A stretch of 64,000 nt of DNA from Blautia sp. (GTDB lineage Bacteria; Bacillota; Clostridia; Lachnospirales; Lachnospiraceae). The notes beneath the pieces are model-generated. The model did no database searches and had not been told where the DNA came from. It saw only the letters and a list, made by a program, of their open reading frames with translations. Shown one piece after another: positions 13,313 through 31,607 of the stretch. Each line of letters starts with the position of its first letter. Positions within the stretch are counted from its first letter, which is position 1. The translations under genes were made by a program, and so were the position numbers. The stretch lies in assembly GCA_022769545.1 (NCBI GenBank), contig JALEJS010000013.1, positions 124,001 through 188,000 of the forward strand, read 5' to 3'.

Positions 13313-13354
13313 AAAAACCCCGCAGTCATGCAAAGACGCATTCTGCGGGGTTTT
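13313..13354 (-). terminator. Terminator of the ATP-grasp/aspartoacylase cluster
   Basis: CCCCGCAG (13318-13325) pairs with CTGCGGGG (13343-13350). On the minus strand it is followed by TTTTT; on the plus strand by TTTT, so it may work both ways. Next to it the 16-base palindrome CAGATCTGCAGATCTG lies at 13366-13381. Confidence 0.8.
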
Positions 13355-13390: not shown

Positions 13391-14326
13391 TCAAACAGAT
13401 GATTCTGCAATCAGCTTGATCACGGCGGTATGTCCGTAAGTCAGCGGATCACTGTGTCGGAAGAATACAATTCCGTCCACGGGCGCACTGATGCATTCCA
13501 GCTCCTCGCCGTCCAGCGGATTCAGAATCCGCGCCAGCGGCTGCCCTTTTTTTACCTCCTCTTCCGTCTCCACGAGGGGTTCAAAAAATCCGGCCTCGGT
13601 CGTTCTCACGGATACGATCTCACGGTCATCGATAATCTGGGAGAGATATCTCTTATATTTCCGGTTTTTCACCACACCTATTGCATCCAGGAACATCATG
13701 ACAGCCTCCACACCGCGTCTGGCACTGTCTCTGTTGATCCGGTCCGTGGTAGTAGTATACAGACTGAAAGCTCTGGTTTCCCAAATCTGCCAGTTGTAAT
13801 TCAGGGTCGTGGTATCGTAAGGTCTTGGCGTTCTGCGTACCACATACGGCATGCCGAATTTTTTTGCGAGCTCCACGTATTCCAGATCGGTTTTCATGAT
13901 GTTCACATAGGGCATGAATTCTCCCGGCATATAATTTGAGGCAAACTGAATTCCATACGGATAATCCGAGATCTTTTCAAAGATTCCCCCTGCAATACGC
14001 TGCGTCGTTTCTCCCTCCATATATCCCGGAAACATACGGTTGATATCGGTATTGTCAATGGGCCAGAAACGCTTGCCCACGTTCATGGAATATGGATTTG
14101 CAGAGGGAATCACCAGAATCTGATGCCCGTATGCCAGTCTTCCCTCTTTTTCTGCCCGCTTTAACGTCTGGATCAGCTGGGAACAGGCATAGAGCTGCTG
14201 GTATTCATTTCCACGCATGTTACCCACAATGCAGACAGATTTTTCCCCCTCTCCGAACACATACCCCATGATCTTAAAATCATCCCGATACAGAGAGCGG
14301 TTTTCATATATCACTTCGGTTCTCAT
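13391..14326 (-). CDS. Aspartoacylase-like paralogue lacking zinc ligands
   Basis: 311 residues, aligned by eye with the upstream gene (M14 succinylglutamate desuccinylase/aspartoacylase family). The substrate-side motif DINRMFPG is kept. The metal motif HGxE has become RGNE (Arg38-Glu41), the second ligand His of IDIHAS is Phe128 in QFASN, and the catalytic Glu region is replaced by YTTTTDR. It is therefore probably catalytically dead and may pair with its active sister. The ATG at 14326 overlaps the upstream stop (ATGA) with AAGGAG 10 bases before. It is the last gene of the cluster. Confidence 0.8.
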   Translation of the reverse strand: MRTEVIYENRSLYRDDFKIMGYVFGEGEKSVCIVGNMRGNEYQQLYACSQLIQTLKRAEKEGRLAYGHQILVIPSANPYSMNVGKRFWPIDNTDINRMFPGYMEGETTQRIAGGIFEKISDYPYGIQFASNYMPGEFMPYVNIMKTDLEYVELAKKFGMPYVVRRTPRPYDTTTLNYNWQIWETRAFSLYTTTTDRINRDSARRGVEAVMMFLDAIGVVKNRKYKRYLSQIIDDREIVSVRTTEAGFFEPLVETEEEVKKGQPLARILNPLDGEELECISAPVDGIVFFRHSDPLTYGHTAVIKLIAESSV

Positions 14327-15306
14327 ATCCTCCACTCTCCTTCTTTATATCGTTTTTCTTCCGGATCCGAGCAGTTCAGGACACGGGCGATCAGGGAGCC
14401 TTCATCGACCACCGGATATTCCCGGATGGTAAAGAGGATTCCCGCCCTGGGAGCCGTGATTCTTTCCAGAACCTCTCCCCGCAGCGGATCCACAATTCTG
14501 CCGATTTCTTCTCCCTCCTTCAGGTAGCTTCCGTGTACAGCCGTCTGAATGAAAATCCCGGCCATCGGGGCATTCAGAAAGCTGACATCCTCATCCACAC
14601 CCGTGATCAGCGGAAGCCTGCTTTGCTCTGTGGGGCCGCTCCACATTCCCATTTCCTTCATGACGGAAAGAATTCCGTTTACCAGCTGGCTGCAGTATGT
14701 CTTTGTGATTCTCATGCCGACCCCCATCTCCACCACAAGCGTATTGACGCCCCGGCTGTTCAGGCTGTAGGCCAGCGTGGATTCCAGCACGGTACTGCTT
14801 CCGTGTACCCAGATCAGATCAATGTTCAGGTTTTTCGCAATGGGCACCAGCTGTCTGGCATGAAGCTCATTGATCCGCACCTGCGGAATTTCTGTCAGAA
14901 AAATATTGCTGGCATGAATATCGATACACAGATCCGACCCGGTAAGATCGTCTATGATCCTTGCCGCCACATGCTCTGTCATGGAACCGTCTTCATTTCC
15001 AGGAAATACCCGGTTCATATCCAGATCAAAGGCCGGGATCCCCCTCGTGATCGAATCGATTCCAAGGGGATTCATTGCCGGATAAATGTCCACAATTCCA
15101 TCCAGATATTCCGGGTTTGCCTTCAGAATCTCTGACAGTGCAAAGCACACGTACTGTCCCTCCAGCTCATCCCCGTGAATTCCCGTCACAATGCTGATTC
15201 GTTTTTTCTTTTCTTTCCTGCCCGATTCCACCCGGTTTTTCAGAATTTCCAGTTTCTCCAGTACCGGCAGAGAAATCGATGCCACTCTCTTAATCACCGT
15301 TTCCAC
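14323..15306 (-). CDS. Succinylglutamate desuccinylase/aspartoacylase family protein
   Basis: 327 residues. Zinc-binding residues are visible as TGIHGDELEG (His44, Glu47) and CIDIHAS (His131), with DLDMNRVFPG for substrate binding and VVEMGVG for the catalytic Glu. The family hydrolyses amide bonds of small N-acyl amino acids or removes C-terminal residues. The C-terminal 100 residues form a beta domain seen in longer members. It overlaps the transglutaminase-fold gene upstream by 17 bases and the degenerate paralogue downstream by ATGA, so all are translationally coupled. The substrate is unknown. Confidence 0.88.
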   Translation of the reverse strand: METVIKRVASISLPVLEKLEILKNRVESGRKEKKKRISIVTGIHGDELEGQYVCFALSEILKANPEYLDGIVDIYPAMNPLGIDSITRGIPAFDLDMNRVFPGNEDGSMTEHVAARIIDDLTGSDLCIDIHASNIFLTEIPQVRINELHARQLVPIAKNLNIDLIWVHGSSTVLESTLAYSLNSRGVNTLVVEMGVGMRITKTYCSQLVNGILSVMKEMGMWSGPTEQSRLPLITGVDEDVSFLNAPMAGIFIQTAVHGSYLKEGEEIGRIVDPLRGEVLERITAPRAGILFTIREYPVVDEGSLIARVLNCSDPEEKRYKEGEWRI

Positions 15307-16093
15307 CTCTTATCTCTTCCATTCTCACATACACATTCTGTGTCTGCAGCGCATTTCCCAGAAAGATTCCTCTGTTCAGTCCGCAGTCATGTGCATCCCT
15401 TCCCACCGCAAAACAAATATAATCCTCATCGGTCTCCTGACGGTTTGTGGGATCAAAGCCTTTCCAGCTTCCTTCCTGCCACACCTCGACCCACGCGTGG
15501 GTCTGTCCCTCACCGGGGATGGCTCCCGCCACATATCTGGCAGTCATTCCCTCACGGCGACACAGAGCCAGAAGAATGTGTGCATAGTCCTGACATACGC
15601 CGCAGCCCTGCATAAAGGCCTGCTCCGCTGTGGTGTCTACTCCCGTACTTCCGCGCAGATAACGAAAAGAGTCCCACAAAATGTACATAAGATCACGACT
15701 TCGCTCCCAGGGCGATTTCCCCTGTCCGGGAGGAAGTGTGCGAATAAACGCTTCCAGAGCCTGCCCGACCCGGGTCATTTCTGACTCATACCGGTACATT
15801 CCCAGCTGGTGAAACGGCTTTTTTTCTTCCCGGGTACCAGCCTGCGTGCGCACCCTTGCCTCCACATCAACGGAAAAACAACTGTGCGGTCTTTCCACAC
15901 TGCCTGCCAGAACCGTATTTCCAAAGGCATCTTTTCCGTACATCACCGCATTTTCCGGCAGGATCTGTACCTGACAGGACGTCACCTCCTGATTCTCAAA
16001 GCGGTCCGGAATACAGCGCAGACTGTAATGCTCTCTGCTGACCGGGGAACTGAAAGAAAGAGACAGCTCATATGTCAGTTTCCATTTTTTCAA
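15290..16093 (-). CDS. Transglutaminase-fold cysteine peptidase
   Basis: 267 residues, cytoplasmic. An N-terminal beta domain (about 1-85) precedes the catalytic core with GCGVCQDYAHILLALCR (Cys167), GEGQTHAWVEVW (His199) and GFDPTNRQ (Asp214), a complete triad. COG1305 proteins of this kind are often encoded beside alpha-E and circularly permuted ATP-grasp genes, as here, and are thought to act as peptidases or amidases on the product. It overlaps the alpha-E gene by ATGA and the aspartoacylase gene by 17 bases. Confidence 0.9.
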   Translation of the reverse strand: MKKWKLTYELSLSFSSPVSREHYSLRCIPDRFENQEVTSCQVQILPENAVMYGKDAFGNTVLAGSVERPHSCFSVDVEARVRTQAGTREEKKPFHQLGMYRYESEMTRVGQALEAFIRTLPPGQGKSPWERSRDLMYILWDSFRYLRGSTGVDTTAEQAFMQGCGVCQDYAHILLALCRREGMTARYVAGAIPGEGQTHAWVEVWQEGSWKGFDPTNRQETDEDYICFAVGRDAHDCGLNRGIFLGNALQTQNVYVRMEEIRGGNGD

Positions 16094-16764
16094 GGAGATA
16101 CCTCCAGAATCTGTTCAATTTCCGTCACGATTGCCGGATAATTGATATTTTCCTCCTGAATCAGGCTCTGAAGATGCTCGATCACATCTTTCCGGTATTT
16201 CAGATTGCACCGGTCAATTCTTCCTGCCAGTCTGCAGATTTCCCGGTTCAGATCCTTTCTGCTTCTGCGAAGACGGCCATACATGTCGATCCGCTCCACC
16301 CGTTTTCCCACCTTCAGAATATTCCGGATATTTTCACTGAGAATGATATCGTCACTGACTCCCCAGAAAGCCATGAGGTTATCCAGCACTTTCTGAAATT
16401 CAATCAGCGGGGCATCGCTTTTTGCCGCCTTCTGCATCTCATAGATACTGAGCTGGATATAGCTCAGGGACTCACTCCCGATTTCCTCTCTCAGGACAAT
16501 GGCATTGTCGTAAGCCCGCTTCAGATTGCTGATCATGGAATTGCAGTCCGTCTCATCAAAGGAATATCTCTGACAGAAATCCTCCCTGGAATGATAAATA
16601 TTGGGAATATCCAGCTGCCTGCAGAATTCCGCATATTTTTCTCCCGGCTGATCCAGCATGGAGTCATAAGTTACAAAATACAGCCGCATGGTGGTATAAA
16701 CACGTTCCAGATACCGGCCAAGCCAATATAATTCGTCTGTCTGTTCTACTGAGATAACACCCAT
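16090..16764 (-). CDS. Alpha-E domain protein (DUF403)
   Basis: 224 residues, almost entirely helical, with the N-terminal signature DELYWLGRYLERVYTTMRLY of the alpha-E family. The biochemical role is unknown; the family is a near-constant partner of circularly permuted type 2 ATP-grasp proteins and may carry the growing product or bridge to the peptidase. It overlaps the ATP-grasp gene by 19 bases. GGAGG lies about 12 bases before the ATG, slightly distant. Confidence 0.9.
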   Translation of the reverse strand: MGVISVEQTDELYWLGRYLERVYTTMRLYFVTYDSMLDQPGEKYAEFCRQLDIPNIYHSREDFCQRYSFDETDCNSMISNLKRAYDNAIVLREEIGSESLSYIQLSIYEMQKAAKSDAPLIEFQKVLDNLMAFWGVSDDIILSENIRNILKVGKRVERIDMYGRLRRSRKDLNREICRLAGRIDRCNLKYRKDVIEHLQSLIQEENINYPAIVTEIEQILEVSP

Positions 16765-18065
16765 GTATCTTTAAATCCTCCTCCCTGAGATGAATTGACA
16801 ATGAAAGAATCCGGGTTTCTGGAAAACCTGGTCAGTCCGCTTTTCCATACCCTTGTCTGTTTCCCGCTGAGCACAAACGCACGAAGGTCCGCCTTGCGGG
16901 GCACAATCTCACCGTTGTCCATAATATTCAGATCCTCAAAATCAATAACCTCCTGTGCGATAAACCGTCTCGGCTCTTTTTCCATCATAGCCAGGAAGCT
17001 TTCCTTTTCCTGCTTCGTCATTTTGTCGGCAAATACAACACCATAGCCTCCGGCTTCTGCAACATCCTTCAGGACAAGACGGTCAAAATTTTCCAGGACA
17101 AATTTCTTATCGTCTTCATAGAACGGAAGATACGTCGGTGCGTTCTGCAGAATGGGTTCCTGATCCAGATAATAACGGATCATCTTCGGAACGAAATAAT
17201 AAATTCCCTTGTCATCTGCCACTCCATTTCCAGGTGCATTGAGAAGTGCCACATTTCCCTTCCGGTAAACATCAAAAATATGAGGAATTCCGATCACCGA
17301 TACCGGATTGAAGTTCATCGGGTCCAGATACTCATCGGATATTCTGCGGTAAACCGCGCCCACCAGTTCCTTCCTGCCGGAATAATCCACGAAATACAGA
17401 TGGTCGTCTTCCACCCTCAGCTCACTGCCGTTCACCAGATGGGCGCCTGTCTGCTCAGCCAGATACGAATGCTCAAAGTAAGCCGCATTGTACCGCCCCG
17501 GGGTCAGAATGACATTGATTCCGCCGGTATTGACCGCATCCATCGTCTCCCTGAGAAGCTGTGCATAATTCCGGTTATCCTCCAGATGATATTTCTGAAA
17601 CGTCGATGGCGATGATTTTCTGCAGAGCTCTCTTGCGATCATCGGGTATGACGCACCGGACGGCACCCGCAGATTGTCCTCCAGTATGTACCACTGCCCG
17701 TTCTTTCCTTTTACAAGGTCTATCCCGGAAATATGGGAAAACACGCCAAGAGACGGCACGATTCCCTCACACTGCGCCAGATAGCCGCTGGATGCATAGA
17801 TAAAATCTTCCGGAACCACCTTATCCCGAATGATCTTCTTTTCGGAATATATGTCCTTCAGAAACAGATTCAGTGCATCCACACGCTGTATCAGACCTTT
17901 TTCCAGAACCGCAAATTCCTCCCTGGTAATGATCCTCGGAATCGGATCAAAAGGAAACAGCTGCTCTTTAAATGTGTTGTTTTTATATATACCAAATTTC
18001 ACTCCGTACCTTGCCAGCAGCTCGTTAATGGCATCTGCCCGGCTGTTTAATTCATAATTGTACAC
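16746..18065 (-). CDS. Circularly permuted type 2 ATP-grasp protein (DUF404/407)
   Basis: 439 residues starting with GTG at 18065, 8 bases behind GGGAGG. Conserved blocks are LEDNLRVPSGASYP (128-141), LNAPGNGVADDKG (275-287), VLKDVAEAGGYGV (331-343) and KADLRAFVL near the C-terminus, typical of COG2308. These proteins are predicted ATP-dependent carboxylate-amine ligases that make short peptide-like amides; published comparative genomics (Iyer, Aravind and colleagues) places them with alpha-E and transglutaminase proteins. The gene lies 15 bases after the PEP-synthase-like gene. Confidence 0.9.
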   Translation of the reverse strand: MYNYELNSRADAINELLARYGVKFGIYKNNTFKEQLFPFDPIPRIITREEFAVLEKGLIQRVDALNLFLKDIYSEKKIIRDKVVPEDFIYASSGYLAQCEGIVPSLGVFSHISGIDLVKGKNGQWYILEDNLRVPSGASYPMIARELCRKSSPSTFQKYHLEDNRNYAQLLRETMDAVNTGGINVILTPGRYNAAYFEHSYLAEQTGAHLVNGSELRVEDDHLYFVDYSGRKELVGAVYRRISDEYLDPMNFNPVSVIGIPHIFDVYRKGNVALLNAPGNGVADDKGIYYFVPKMIRYYLDQEPILQNAPTYLPFYEDDKKFVLENFDRLVLKDVAEAGGYGVVFADKMTKQEKESFLAMMEKEPRRFIAQEVIDFEDLNIMDNGEIVPRKADLRAFVLSGKQTRVWKSGLTRFSRNPDSFIVNSSQGGGFKDTWVLSQ

Positions 18066-18080
18066 TCCTCTTTCCTCCCA

Positions 18081-20678
18081 TCAAAGCGCTTCCTTTTCCT
18101 CCTGTGCCAGAAAGCTGCATATGCAGTGATTTTCCACGGCATCCAGACAGTAATACAGTTCTTCTGTTTCCCGGACTGTGATCATTCCCTCCAGCTCCGG
18201 ATACCTGGAGCAGATCTGCGTATATCTGTCCGGAAGCTCTGCAAACAGCTCCGGCTGATAGATTCTGGTCTTTTCATTGTTCCAGATTGCCCCATAGCTG
18301 ATCTGTGCTTCCACCAGATCCTGGAACATATGACTGCCATAGCTTAATTCCGGCATATAACCAGCCCGCTTATCCGATATCTCGCATATTTCCGAAAAGC
18401 CGGAGATATCTCCGAATGTGACCGGCACCCCAAGCTCCGGCGAGGAAGTCCCGATCCTTCCCGGTGTCATCAGCAGGAGATTTTTCCCACTGTTCCGGTA
18501 ATACCGGTTGATCTCACCGATGGCAGAAGCGGCATCATGCTTCTTCACATATGGATATTCGTAATATTTTACAGGATCCACCTGCACGACCACATCCACC
18601 TTGCGTTTTCCGGACTCTCCCATGGAGGAGGCGACAATGTCGAAAAATACCTGTTCCGGTTTCGGATTCAGTGCCTTCAGATCCACCTGTTCTCCTGCTT
18701 CTCCCAGATACAGAGGTCTGCACTGCAGAAGGTTGACCACGAAATCCCCGTCTTCATTCATATTCACCGCAAATTCAATGTCCACCGGATTTTCATATAC
18801 CTTTTCCAGTGTCTTCAGTATTTTCTGCATCAATCCGGTAAATTCTGTCTGTTCCAGAAGCTTCTGACAGCTGACAAACCAGACATCCCGGTAGCGCCCC
18901 ATCTGCCTCAGGCGGTATTCCGCCTCGTAATCATGCTCCAGAACCATTTTTTTGTACCAGAGCGGAAGATTTTCCAGCAGATCGTCCAGTGCCACATCGC
19001 CGAACCGGTTTTCGGAACAGTCCAGAACATCAATATAGCGCTGGGAATACCGGTGCTTCTGCGCCACCGTCGTAAGGACGGTAGCTGCCGGGCGGTCCAG
19101 ATTGGCCAGACGCGGATAATCCTCCTTTGTCCGATCCACCGCCTTTGTTCCAAGTCCCATGACAAGGCGGAGCATCCCCGCATTGGGATCCATATCTGCA
19201 TACCATTTATAGGCACTGTGGCTGTATCCCACACCGGCAGCTCCCGGCATGAAGTATTTTCCGTAATAGGTTCCCGAAACCCGCTGGACCAGAATGGCCA
19301 TCTGCTCGTCCTTTTTTTCCAGTCCCCGCCGCAGCCGGTATTCCAGCGCCGAATAATCCATGGTACTGGCGTAGACTCTTCGCACCGCCTGCTCAAAAGC
19401 TTCCATCCTTTCCTGCGGGCTTCCCTGATTCACGCAGAATACGGATTCATATTTTCCTGCAAAGGCATTTCCAAAACCGTCCTCCAGAAAGCTGGAAGAC
19501 CGCACAATGAACGGACTCTGTCCGAAGTATTCCAGTACATTCAGGAACTGATCCCGGATCTTCGGCGGGAATTTTCCTTTCAGAAGATGTTCCCGCAGCT
19601 CATCGGCTGCCGAGAAATACCCTTCCTCGGTTCTCTGCCGGATACGAAGCTCCCAGTCATCATTGGAAACAATATAGGTATAGAACACATCGGACCCGAT
19701 GTAAAACGAATCGTGCGGTTCACTGTACAGCCGGTACTCCGGAATATCGGTCTTTGCGATTTTCCGGGCCAGCAGCATTCCACAGGCCTTTCCGCCGATG
19801 GCACCGCTTCCGATCATCCGGTCTCTCAGCTTGAAATAGTCTTCCGGGGTAAAATATTCTTTTACCAGTTTTTTCAGCCTGACATCTTTTGTCATGGTGC
19901 TGTCGATGATCTGCTCCTCCATCTCACCGGTAAAGCTTCCGTTTGCATATGCAGCCCTTGCCATATTAAAAAACCGGTCATGGCTGTCGTAATTCTGATC
20001 CTGACTTTTTTCATTGATTTCCTGAATGGTCTGATAATATCGGCTGATGCTCACTCCGTTGTCGATCACGGAAATCGTTCCTGTACTTCGCCTGTATCCG
20101 TGGGGGAGGAACATCTTCTCAGAGTTCCGGTTCCAGACCTTCAGGGGATGAAGATAAATATATGTTTCATTGGAATAGACATCCAGAAGAAGCTGTGTGG
20201 TATCCCGGATCCTGGCCACGGCGTCAAAGGAATGCCGTCCCCGGAGCAGAGGAAAATATGCTACGGTATCCATCACGAACAGATAGGGACAGGTGACCCG
20301 GAAAAAGTTTCCCATCATCAGGTCGGTATACCATACCGACTGAAGCTCTGACAGACAGTCGAATACGTAGAATGCATCCTTCCCCTGTCTTGTGATTTCT
20401 TCATGAATGCCCACCGTAAATCCCTCGAATCCCTCATCCGGATTAAATTCCCTCACCTTGATCCCGGTCAGATCCTTTAGCAGAGGCTCATGCTGTGCAA
20501 ACCGGACATAGATCACATTTCTTCCGTCTTTCACCGCCTGCCTGGCAAAGGCCTCCGCAAAAAAGCAGAATTCCTCAATCTCTGTCACCTGCCAGACCAC
20601 ATTATCTCCCAGACGAATATAGTCCAGAACTTCATCAATCTGCGGATATCCGCAGTGAATCTTATCAAATGCTGCCAA
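18081..20678 (-). CDS. PEP/pyruvate-binding-domain protein without phosphohistidine domain
   Basis: 865 residues from a TTG at 20678 directly behind GGAGGTGAGGA; an ATG at 20717 lies in the preceding terminator region. The first 220 residues resemble a RecA/KaiC-type sheet without a P-loop. From about 285 to 680 it matches the ATP-binding half of PEP synthase: GAIGGKACGM, PFIVRSSSFLEDGFGNAFAGKY, AILVQRVSG and DFVVNLLQCRPL. The phosphohistidine swivel and PEP barrel are missing, so it is not a PEP synthase. It may activate or phosphorylate a substrate for the ATP-grasp encoded next. It is the first gene of the six-gene cluster. Confidence 0.85.
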   Translation of the reverse strand: MAAFDKIHCGYPQIDEVLDYIRLGDNVVWQVTEIEEFCFFAEAFARQAVKDGRNVIYVRFAQHEPLLKDLTGIKVREFNPDEGFEGFTVGIHEEITRQGKDAFYVFDCLSELQSVWYTDLMMGNFFRVTCPYLFVMDTVAYFPLLRGRHSFDAVARIRDTTQLLLDVYSNETYIYLHPLKVWNRNSEKMFLPHGYRRSTGTISVIDNGVSISRYYQTIQEINEKSQDQNYDSHDRFFNMARAAYANGSFTGEMEEQIIDSTMTKDVRLKKLVKEYFTPEDYFKLRDRMIGSGAIGGKACGMLLARKIAKTDIPEYRLYSEPHDSFYIGSDVFYTYIVSNDDWELRIRQRTEEGYFSAADELREHLLKGKFPPKIRDQFLNVLEYFGQSPFIVRSSSFLEDGFGNAFAGKYESVFCVNQGSPQERMEAFEQAVRRVYASTMDYSALEYRLRRGLEKKDEQMAILVQRVSGTYYGKYFMPGAAGVGYSHSAYKWYADMDPNAGMLRLVMGLGTKAVDRTKEDYPRLANLDRPAATVLTTVAQKHRYSQRYIDVLDCSENRFGDVALDDLLENLPLWYKKMVLEHDYEAEYRLRQMGRYRDVWFVSCQKLLEQTEFTGLMQKILKTLEKVYENPVDIEFAVNMNEDGDFVVNLLQCRPLYLGEAGEQVDLKALNPKPEQVFFDIVASSMGESGKRKVDVVVQVDPVKYYEYPYVKKHDAASAIGEINRYYRNSGKNLLLMTPGRIGTSSPELGVPVTFGDISGFSEICEISDKRAGYMPELSYGSHMFQDLVEAQISYGAIWNNEKTRIYQPELFAELPDRYTQICSRYPELEGMITVRETEELYYCLDAVENHCICSFLAQEEKEAL

Positions 20679-20703: not shown

Positions 20704-20748
20704 TAAAAAAAGAACAAAGACGTCCTGTTTTCAAACGTCCTTGTTCTT
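20704..20748 (-). terminator. Terminator between response regulator and ATP-grasp cluster
   Basis: AAGAACAAaGACGT (20710-20723) pairs with ACGTCcTTGTTCTT (20735-20748). On the minus strand the stem is followed by TTTTTTTATTT. It separates the two-component gene at 20777 from the gene starting at 20678, whose GGAGG lies only about 20 bases downstream. Confidence 0.8.
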
Positions 20749-20776
20749 CGTAATTAATAGATTAGCAGAACCTTTT

Positions 20777-31432: not shown

Positions 31433-31607
31433 AAAAGATACCGCACGGATTGTTCCGCATTTCATGCTCCCACAATCCTGCAAATCATTCGGAATTCGTG
31501 AGGCCCCTGCCCCACTTCTTTCTCATGTTTTGGCGGGTCCCAAGGTCTTTCATCCACTATCGTGCAGGCACGATGTGGTTTCAGACCTTTTGGCCCTGGT
31601 ATCTTTT
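31433..31607 (-). ncRNA. Structured RNA candidate, about 175 nt, family unknown
   Basis: The 323-base gap 31321-31643 has no convincing gene. AAAAGATACC and GGTATCTTTT (31607-31598 and 31442-31433, minus strand) form a perfect 10-bp closing stem. Inside lie a long hairpin AAGGUCU/AGACCUU with CCAC/GUGG and UCGUGC/GCACGA extensions (31589-31542) and GGAUUGU/ACAAUCC with a GCAU-GAA-AUGC tip (31478-31447). Unpaired stretches are A- and G-rich only on the minus strand, which favours that sense. It lacks the core motifs I know of 6S, SRP, tmRNA, T-box, glycine or SAM riboswitches. It may be a zupT leader or an independent RNA. Confidence 0.6.

Follow-up and report, generated by a model that had tools for sequence, protein, structure and literature searches.

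A stretch of 64,000 nucleotides from a Blautia sp. genome (assembly GCA_022769545.1, contig JALEJS010000013.1, positions 124,001 to 188,000), hereafter the window, carries a compact run of six genes on its minus strand, which we call PEPS, ATPG, ALPE, TGAS, M14A, and M14B (Table 1). The genome is a 2.96 Mb draft that is 91% complete. The six reading frames are open from position 20678 to position 13391, where a preliminary description of this DNA had placed them. A gap of 15 bp separates PEPS from ATPG, and the following genes overlap successively by 19, 4, 17, and 13 bp. The preliminary description had presented a tight run between two terminators, and the reading frames, the domains (Pfam matches above the curated cut-offs), and the spacings agree with it. 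A terminator scan of the region gave 12 such sites against 7.0 expected; therefore, a single site proves little, although the 17-pair upstream site is the strongest listed.

Table 1. Genes and terminator-like hairpins of the six-gene run (window coordinates)
Feature	Position	Strand	Description
PEPS	18081..20678	-	865 residues; one PPDK_N ATP-binding domain, residues 293-658
ATPG	16746..18065	-	circularly permuted ATP-grasp ligase (predicted), 439 residues
ALPE	16090..16764	-	alpha-E protein, short form, 224 residues
TGAS	15290..16093	-	transglutaminase-fold cysteine protein, 267 residues
M14A	14323..15306	-	predicted aspartoacylase/DoeB-type zinc hydrolase, 327 residues
M14B	13391..14335	-	predicted M14 pseudoenzyme, 314 residues
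Terminator-like hairpin	20709..20749	-	17 pairs; separates PEPS from the response-regulator gene upstream
Terminator-like hairpin	about 13313..13354	-	after M14B; part of the stem from the scan, the rest by eye

A conserved core of five genes

When genome contigs were scanned with the ATPG protein, 255 relatives were found, and the 80 best loci among them were analyzed. These are near relatives, with 77–87% identity to the ATPG of the window, and the sample is biased to that extent. Most of the records carry names such as Lachnospiraceae or Clostridiales, and a few carry odd ones (Treponema, for example). One carrier of the core, at locus L041, is the isolate Butyrivibrio sp. AE3009. The order ATPG–ALPE–TGAS–M14A–M14B is kept in 72 of the 80 loci. 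Seven of the other eight (L013, L017, L020, L027, L070, L071, and L078) end at most about 120 bp from a contig end, and the eighth (L046) seems to be broken. Among the 72 full-order loci, seven (L011, L016, L021, L028, L029, L031, and L077) have one gene split over two matches, possibly because of frameshifts or inserts. The median overlap of ATPG and ALPE across the loci is 19 bp, the same as in the window, and that of M14A and M14B is 4 bp (71 pairs). The recurrence of the five-gene order is more than chance.

The core is also present in other Bacillota families. It was found in another family of the same taxonomic order (G087), elsewhere in the class (G588 and G631), and elsewhere in the phylum (G542). 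ATPG was matched in 8 of 98 relatives, counting the genome of the window, and an alpha-E match was obtained in 7 of the 398 genomes of a phylum sample.

The preliminary description had regarded all six genes as one larger system, a view that would fail if the genes occurred separately in most genomes. For five of them the view stands, since the M14 pair accompanies the trio of ATPG, ALPE, and TGAS in 72 of the 80 loci. It does not stand for PEPS, which is indeed separate in most genomes: it lies beside the core in two of the 80 loci, and the core adjoins none of the 31 PEPS loci other than that of the window, several of which end soon after PEPS at contig ends. The system thus has five genes, not six. 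One of the two M14 proteins in it is predicted to be a conserved pseudoenzyme, for which another lineage shows a possible intermediate stage. A published function for the exact cluster, which had likewise been named as a ground for rejection, was not recognized in the open-access papers searched, nor was the exact cluster itself. The M14 partners may be mentioned in Iyer 2009, which is reportedly the primary paper on the ATP-grasp/alpha-E/transglutaminase/Anbu operon. Transglutaminase, ATP-grasp, operon, and alpha-E are all without mention in PMC8665760.

The ATP-grasp, alpha-E, and transglutaminase-fold proteins

Residues were counted in complete single-piece genes (79 ATPG, 76 ALPE, 69 TGAS, 72 M14A, and 72 M14B), with the window sequence added to each set. 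ATPG scores 445 bits with CP_ATPgrasp_2 (cut-off 32). It is the most conserved member of the core, with a median pairwise identity of 82% over 80 sequences, and D116, E129, N131, and K333, which we take to be candidate ATP/Mg positions, are present in all 80. Among the PDB sequences, 3n6x alone is homologous to ATPG at E < 0.01, with a nearly full-length alignment (E 5e-123). The name of this entry, putative glutathionylspermidine synthase, is that of the depositors and stands for a presumed function. Glutathionylspermidine synthetase/amidase combines a ligase with a cysteine amidase, and it offers an analogy to the pairing of an ATP-grasp protein with a cysteine protein.

ALPE matches Alpha-E with 85.6 bits (cut-off 20.8) over profile positions 7–168 of 294 and is therefore a short form. 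Its two Glu-Arg pairs, E20-R21 and E157-R158, are both kept in 77 of 77 sequences. TGAS contains Transglut_core (62 bits) and Bact_transglu_N (49 bits); Cys167, His199, and Asp214 are kept in 70 of 70 sequences, and the median pairwise identity is 0.43. The window therefore holds all three marks of the trio, namely a circularly permuted ATP-grasp protein, an adjacent alpha-E protein with Glu-Arg pairs, and an adjacent transglutaminase fold with Cys, His, and Asp. The trio is a predicted amide- or peptide-making system that often occurs with Anbu, and the assignment of the window genes to such a system agrees with the passages on it in PMC5666114, PMC6376114, and PMC3597751, in which no product is reported. 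The ATP-grasp homologue of the Yersinia Anbu operon is described as releasing phosphate from ATP (PMC6376114).

M14A, a predicted enzyme, and M14B, a predicted pseudoenzyme

Both M14 proteins carry an AstE_AspA_cat domain (81 bits in M14A and 55 bits in M14B). Their description as two aspartoacylase-like proteins is correct in this respect, but M14B has no metal site. The zinc ligands of M14A (His44, Glu47, and His131) and its catalytic Glu193, aligned with 3cdx, are kept in 73 of 73 sequences. In M14B, Arg41 replaces the first zinc His and Tyr193 replaces the catalytic Glu, both in 73 of 73, and the Glu at position 44 is kept. The region of the third ligand reads Gln130, Phe/Leu131, mostly Ala/Thr/Ser132, and Ser133, with no His at positions 129–133 in 73 of 73. 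The alignment of the third ligand varies with the program, placing the His against Gln130 or against position 132; both columns are free of His in the 73 sequences. Farther out among the relatives of M14B, L161 and L164 do carry a His where M14B has Gln130, together with an Arg at the first site. The idea of two turnover enzymes, which had been drawn from the paired M14 genes, has to be abandoned, because M14B lacks both zinc His residues and the catalytic Glu in every sequence.

Judged by these residues, M14B is a predicted conserved pseudoenzyme without a metal site, and M14A is an intact-looking enzyme. M14B is not decaying, as its median pairwise identity (0.61) is near that of M14A (0.66). 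Asn99-Arg100 of M14B is also kept in 73 of 73 sequences, and we take the corresponding Asn-Arg pair to bind the substrate in aspartoacylases. A structural model of M14B (predicted local distance difference test score, pLDDT, 84.7; below 50 at residues 87–92 and 94–99) has DoeB (6twm, E 7e-20) and the beta-Asp-Arg hydrolase CphZ (8ein, E 4e-19) among its best matches. The M14A profile gives a weak sequence match to CphZ (E 2e-5), but other chains of the AstE/AspA and DoeB types are closer to M14A in sequence. With the DoeB equivalog TIGR02994 of NCBIfam, M14A scores 53.8 bits and M14B 49.9 bits against a cut-off of 402.7. On plasmids, M14B has distant AstE/AspA relatives only, whose identities stay under 60% (30% at most among the matches listed). 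In genome G588, a single open frame joins an M14B-type protein to a domain of the class I methyltransferases (Methyltransf_11, 79 bits; L161:5672-7204, minus strand).

Pseudoenzymes are known among metallopeptidases. Those treated in the relevant sections of PMC11266112 (among them AEBP1, CPXM2, CPD-III, and Ecm14 of M14, and MPP of M16) have lost metal ligands or the general-base Glu while keeping the fold, and such proteins can serve as partners or scaffolds. As in M14B, the general-base Glu is replaced by Tyr in AEBP1, CPXM2, and CPD-III (PMC11266112). The M14 examples described there come from vertebrates, Drosophila, and yeast, whereas M14B is bacterial, is of the AstE/AspA type, and stands in tandem with an active-looking relative.

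A-type and B-type M14 genes are also adjacent in six of nine genomes of the taxonomic order of G597, and the trio adjoins the pair in G597 itself, the genome in which this was checked. The B-type genes of this order have the stretch GETTQRIA in common with M14B. They keep both His residues and the Glu of the zinc site and have Met in place of the catalytic Glu (6/6), and the A-type genes are intact at the zinc-site and catalytic positions (6/6). In genome G514, where the alpha-E protein of the trio is full-length (330 residues), no AstE/AspA match was found. The comparison suggests a stepwise decay of the B-type protein, with the genes of the G597 order as a possible intermediate. In the simplest reading, the trio was joined by a tandem M14 pair, one copy then lost its Glu, and the metal site was lost afterwards; we infer this direction from the comparison. 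As an outgroup with a half-decayed twin, the G597 order would provide a natural series for the change from an enzyme to a partner protein.

PEPS, the occasional sixth gene

PPDK_N (154 bits) is the sole domain of PEPS above its cut-off. Pfam searches of its N- and C-terminal parts separately, and of two relatives whole, found no phosphohistidine or phosphoenolpyruvate (PEP)-utilizer domain, and the best score with a PEP-synthase equivalog was 55.6 bits against a cut-off of 883. By its domain content, PEPS is predicted not to be a PEP synthase. The N-terminus appears RecA/KaiC-like by eye; Pfam gave only a sub-threshold match to DUF5647, and we make no claim for this part. No match was obtained between PEPS and the PDB sequences. 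Two start codons are candidates, an upstream TTG at 20717, which is used in the list of open reading frames, and the TTG at 20678, which has a good ribosome-binding site by eye. As to the start, the residues MAAF recur in 13 or more of the 14 family sequences recovered (32 were tried).

PEPS was matched in 35 of 98 relatives, counting the genome of the window, and four of these matches are weak (E above 1e-10). At the two ATPG loci with PEPS beside the core, it lies 38 bp after M14B and is interrupted by the contig end (L056), or it lies upstream of the core with a RelA/SpoT-type gene (L062:2186-3247) between PEPS and ATPG (L062). In G133, a C-terminal PEPS fragment alone directly follows M14B (L158, minus strand, about 4620–3930). 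Two loci in 80 compare with a rough post hoc expectation of 0.1 for the flanks covered, which assumes 3 Mb genomes and PEPS in one third of the carriers (P about 0.005).

Within the genus of the window, PEPS occurs in 7/7 genomes with ATPG and in 19/53 others (p = 0.0017, uncorrected for kinship), or in 6/6 of the former when the genome of the window is removed (p = 0.004, likewise uncorrected). The count leaves out a PEPS fragment in G007, and the seven ATPG matches include two incomplete ones, one with two internal stops (G010) and one at a contig end (G047). In the family sample of 200 genomes, PEPS occurs in 10/30 genomes with ATPG and in 35/170 others (p = 0.10, or 0.16 without the genome of the window, again uncorrected for kinship). 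ATPG matches with E < 1e-20 and PEPS matches with E < 1e-50 were kept for these family counts, which left out weak ATPG matches in G180, G226, G262, and G266 and weak PEPS matches in G101, G114, G157, G188, G222, G253, and G267. Around PEPS elsewhere, no conserved neighbor was seen beyond apparent local synteny, any one neighbor being present in at most 8 of the 31 loci. The six genes were rejected as a conserved unit, as PEPS stands apart in nearly all of the loci seen, and PEPS is best called an occasional partner of the core. The genome of the window encodes a second PEPS protein, 49% identical and away from the core (L125:3809-6349, minus strand; G000:C41), and this copy is counted among the 31 loci.

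Comparison with known systems

The core resembles the Anbu operon in having three families side by side, the circularly permuted ATP-grasp, alpha-E, and transglutaminase-fold proteins, as described in the literature cited above. It differs in that the tandem M14 pair occupies the slot of Anbu and in that the alpha-E protein is short (median 222 residues), in contrast to the full-length form in G514. There is no Anbu gene among the six, and a search of the 91%-complete genome of the window gave no match to PF00227. An Anbu or proteasome partner was rejected on this ground; in 7 of 11 genomes searched, PF00227 matches were found off the core position.

The M14 pair has the AstE/AspA M14 fold in common with DoeB (EutE), an N-acetyl-diaminobutyrate deacetylase, and with CphZ, a cyanophycin dipeptide hydrolase. 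M14A is like them in its HxxE...H zinc ligands and catalytic Glu. It is unlike DoeB in scoring far under the DoeB cut-off, and M14B departs from both by the lack of a metal site. The rlo operon of Pseudomonas aeruginosa also combines ATP-grasp, transglutaminase-fold, and peptidase genes, and its transglutaminase domain is inactive (PMC12239564). However, its ATP-grasp protein is RimK-like, its transglutaminase fold is membrane-bound, its peptidase is a retropepsin, and alpha-E is not mentioned there.

Neighboring genes and nitrogen

Nine of the 80 loci have a gene for a polar amino-acid ATP-binding cassette (ABC) permease no more than 6 kb from the core. The nearest NCBIfam models are GltK for one permease and an Asp/Glu-binding model for one binding protein, both below the cut-off. 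In 12 of the 80 loci, a gene within 6 kb of the core, in six cases within 35 bp, encodes a fusion of a FUSC/aromatic-acid-exporter domain with a Cof-type HAD hydrolase; the two domains were checked for two of the 12 loci (L051:8654-9982 and L079:14766-16055). No constant neighbor that could be a modification target was seen at the core loci. Related clusters respond to nitrogen: in Pseudomonas putida, PP_2688 and PP_2685 change by log2 values of 3.99 and 4.44 on nitrate versus ammonium, according to the data consulted in PMC8050072, and a cluster in B. cenocepacia depends on NtrC and sigma54 according to the pertinent section of PMC5491218. The flanking transporters and the nitrogen control point to a small nitrogenous amide, but none of them proves it. 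In L042, L043, L050, L068, and L076, a cytidylate-kinase-like gene stands directly before ATPG and after an amino-acid ABC transporter; its family was tested for L042 (L042:6567-7223).

Proposed function of the core

We read the cluster as a five-gene operon for forming and trimming an amide, with an optional sixth gene in front, and give this reading a probability of about one half. ATPG would convert a carboxylate and ATP to an acyl phosphate, which would then be joined to an amine, and the alpha-E protein would be its dedicated partner; the sole direct evidence for such a step is the phosphate release by the Yersinia homologue. TGAS would cleave or transfer the resulting amide via its cysteine. 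M14A is predicted to be a zinc amidohydrolase that takes an acyl group or a side-chain amide off an amino-acid-like end with a free carboxylate. M14B would be its non-catalytic partner, probably as one subunit of a mixed complex, binding the carboxylate end or switching M14A on; binding of this end is proposed because the Asn-Arg pair is kept. The substrate would most likely be a small conjugate of an amino acid or an amine that is linked to the nitrogen economy, and PEPS would be accessory.

Several points weigh against this reading. For every protein of the cluster, the substrate, the product, the complex, and the reaction are proposals. The substrate class of M14A is uncertain because its score is far below the DoeB cut-off. 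The core is patchy, since ATPG was matched in 34 of the 200 genomes of the family (30 of them with E < 1e-20), and the 80 loci, being the nearest relatives of the window ATPG, are not independent. The flanking transporters occur in a minority of the loci, in part from shared descent. Nitrogen regulation of related clusters is known from Proteobacteria in the sources consulted (PMC8050072, PMC5491218). In pull-downs, the Yersinia operon proteins gave no specific interaction with Anbu (PMC6376114). Absences are weakened by the draft state of the window genome.

The same protein families could instead modify proteins, with ATPG and the alpha-E protein attaching an amino acid or a short tag and TGAS and M14A removing or editing it. 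Anbu operons have been proposed to tag proteins or to synthesize peptides (passages in PMC6376114 and PMC5666114), and a RimK-type ATP-grasp enzyme and a peptidase edit ribosomal protein tails in the system described in PMC12239564. However, the M14 proteins find their matches among small-molecule deacylases (DoeB) and in a hydrolase of dipeptides (CphZ), the importer near nine cores fits a small molecule, and a constant neighbor as a possible target was not seen, so that we consider protein modification rather unlikely. Nitrogen salvage alone seems equally unlikely. An imported amide would then be broken down, and the ATP-grasp step would condition the substrate and make no product. Two hydrolase folds in the core, the same amino-acid importer, and the induction of related clusters when ammonium is short (in the data of PMC8050072 and PMC5491218) suit such a role, but ATPG is the most conserved protein of the core, which is unexpected for a purely degradative set, and the FUSC/HAD membrane protein near 12 cores is a possible exporter.

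That PEPS is intrinsic to a six-gene pathway, where it would activate or phosphorylate the substrate for ATPG, appears improbable. Its position 15 bp from ATPG in the window, its presence by the core in L056, L062, and, as a fragment, in G133, the excess over the post hoc expectation, and its occurrence in every genome of the genus with ATPG (two of these matches being pieces) speak for it. Against it, no PEPS lies beside the core in the sequence available for 78 of the 80 loci, many of which have truncated flanks (the flank exceeds 3 kb upstream in 62 and downstream in 55), no PEPS locus outside the window adjoins a core, although several are cut short by contig ends, the family-wide link is weak, and a second PEPS exists elsewhere in the genome. 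Cyanophycin-like polymer metabolism, in which M14A would be the isoaspartyl dipeptidase still missing in Firmicutes, is highly improbable. The structural match of the M14B model and the weak profile match of M14A to CphZ favor it, but none of the 12 genomes searched, including that of the window, has a cyanophycin synthetase (TIGR02068) above the cut-off, weak sub-cut-off matches being present in all 12, and M14A is closer in sequence to other chains of its family.

Within the amide-forming and amide-trimming reading, a more specific scheme can be put forward tentatively, with the odds against it. In these Bacillota, the amidoligase trio, which elsewhere works with the proteasome relative Anbu, would have gained a two-subunit M14 hydrolase, its stepwise-inactivated copy would have become an essential substrate-binding or gating subunit, and in gut bacteria the five proteins would build and reset a nitrogen-linked amide metabolite not yet described. 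The system itself is real, conserved, and under-described, but its families are known ones, grouped about a trio for which amide formation had already been predicted. It is a conserved operon carried by some gut-associated bacteria and looks built to make and trim an amide. With its metal-free twin kept, it offers a lead open to testing, and the pathway is not yet solved. The predicted zinc amidohydrolase and its conserved dead twin, tied to the trio, provide a handle, as this class has known small substrates from which one may work back to the product.

Elsewhere in the window, a Clostridiales-1 RNA was found at positions 31436-31604 on the minus strand (126.8 bits).

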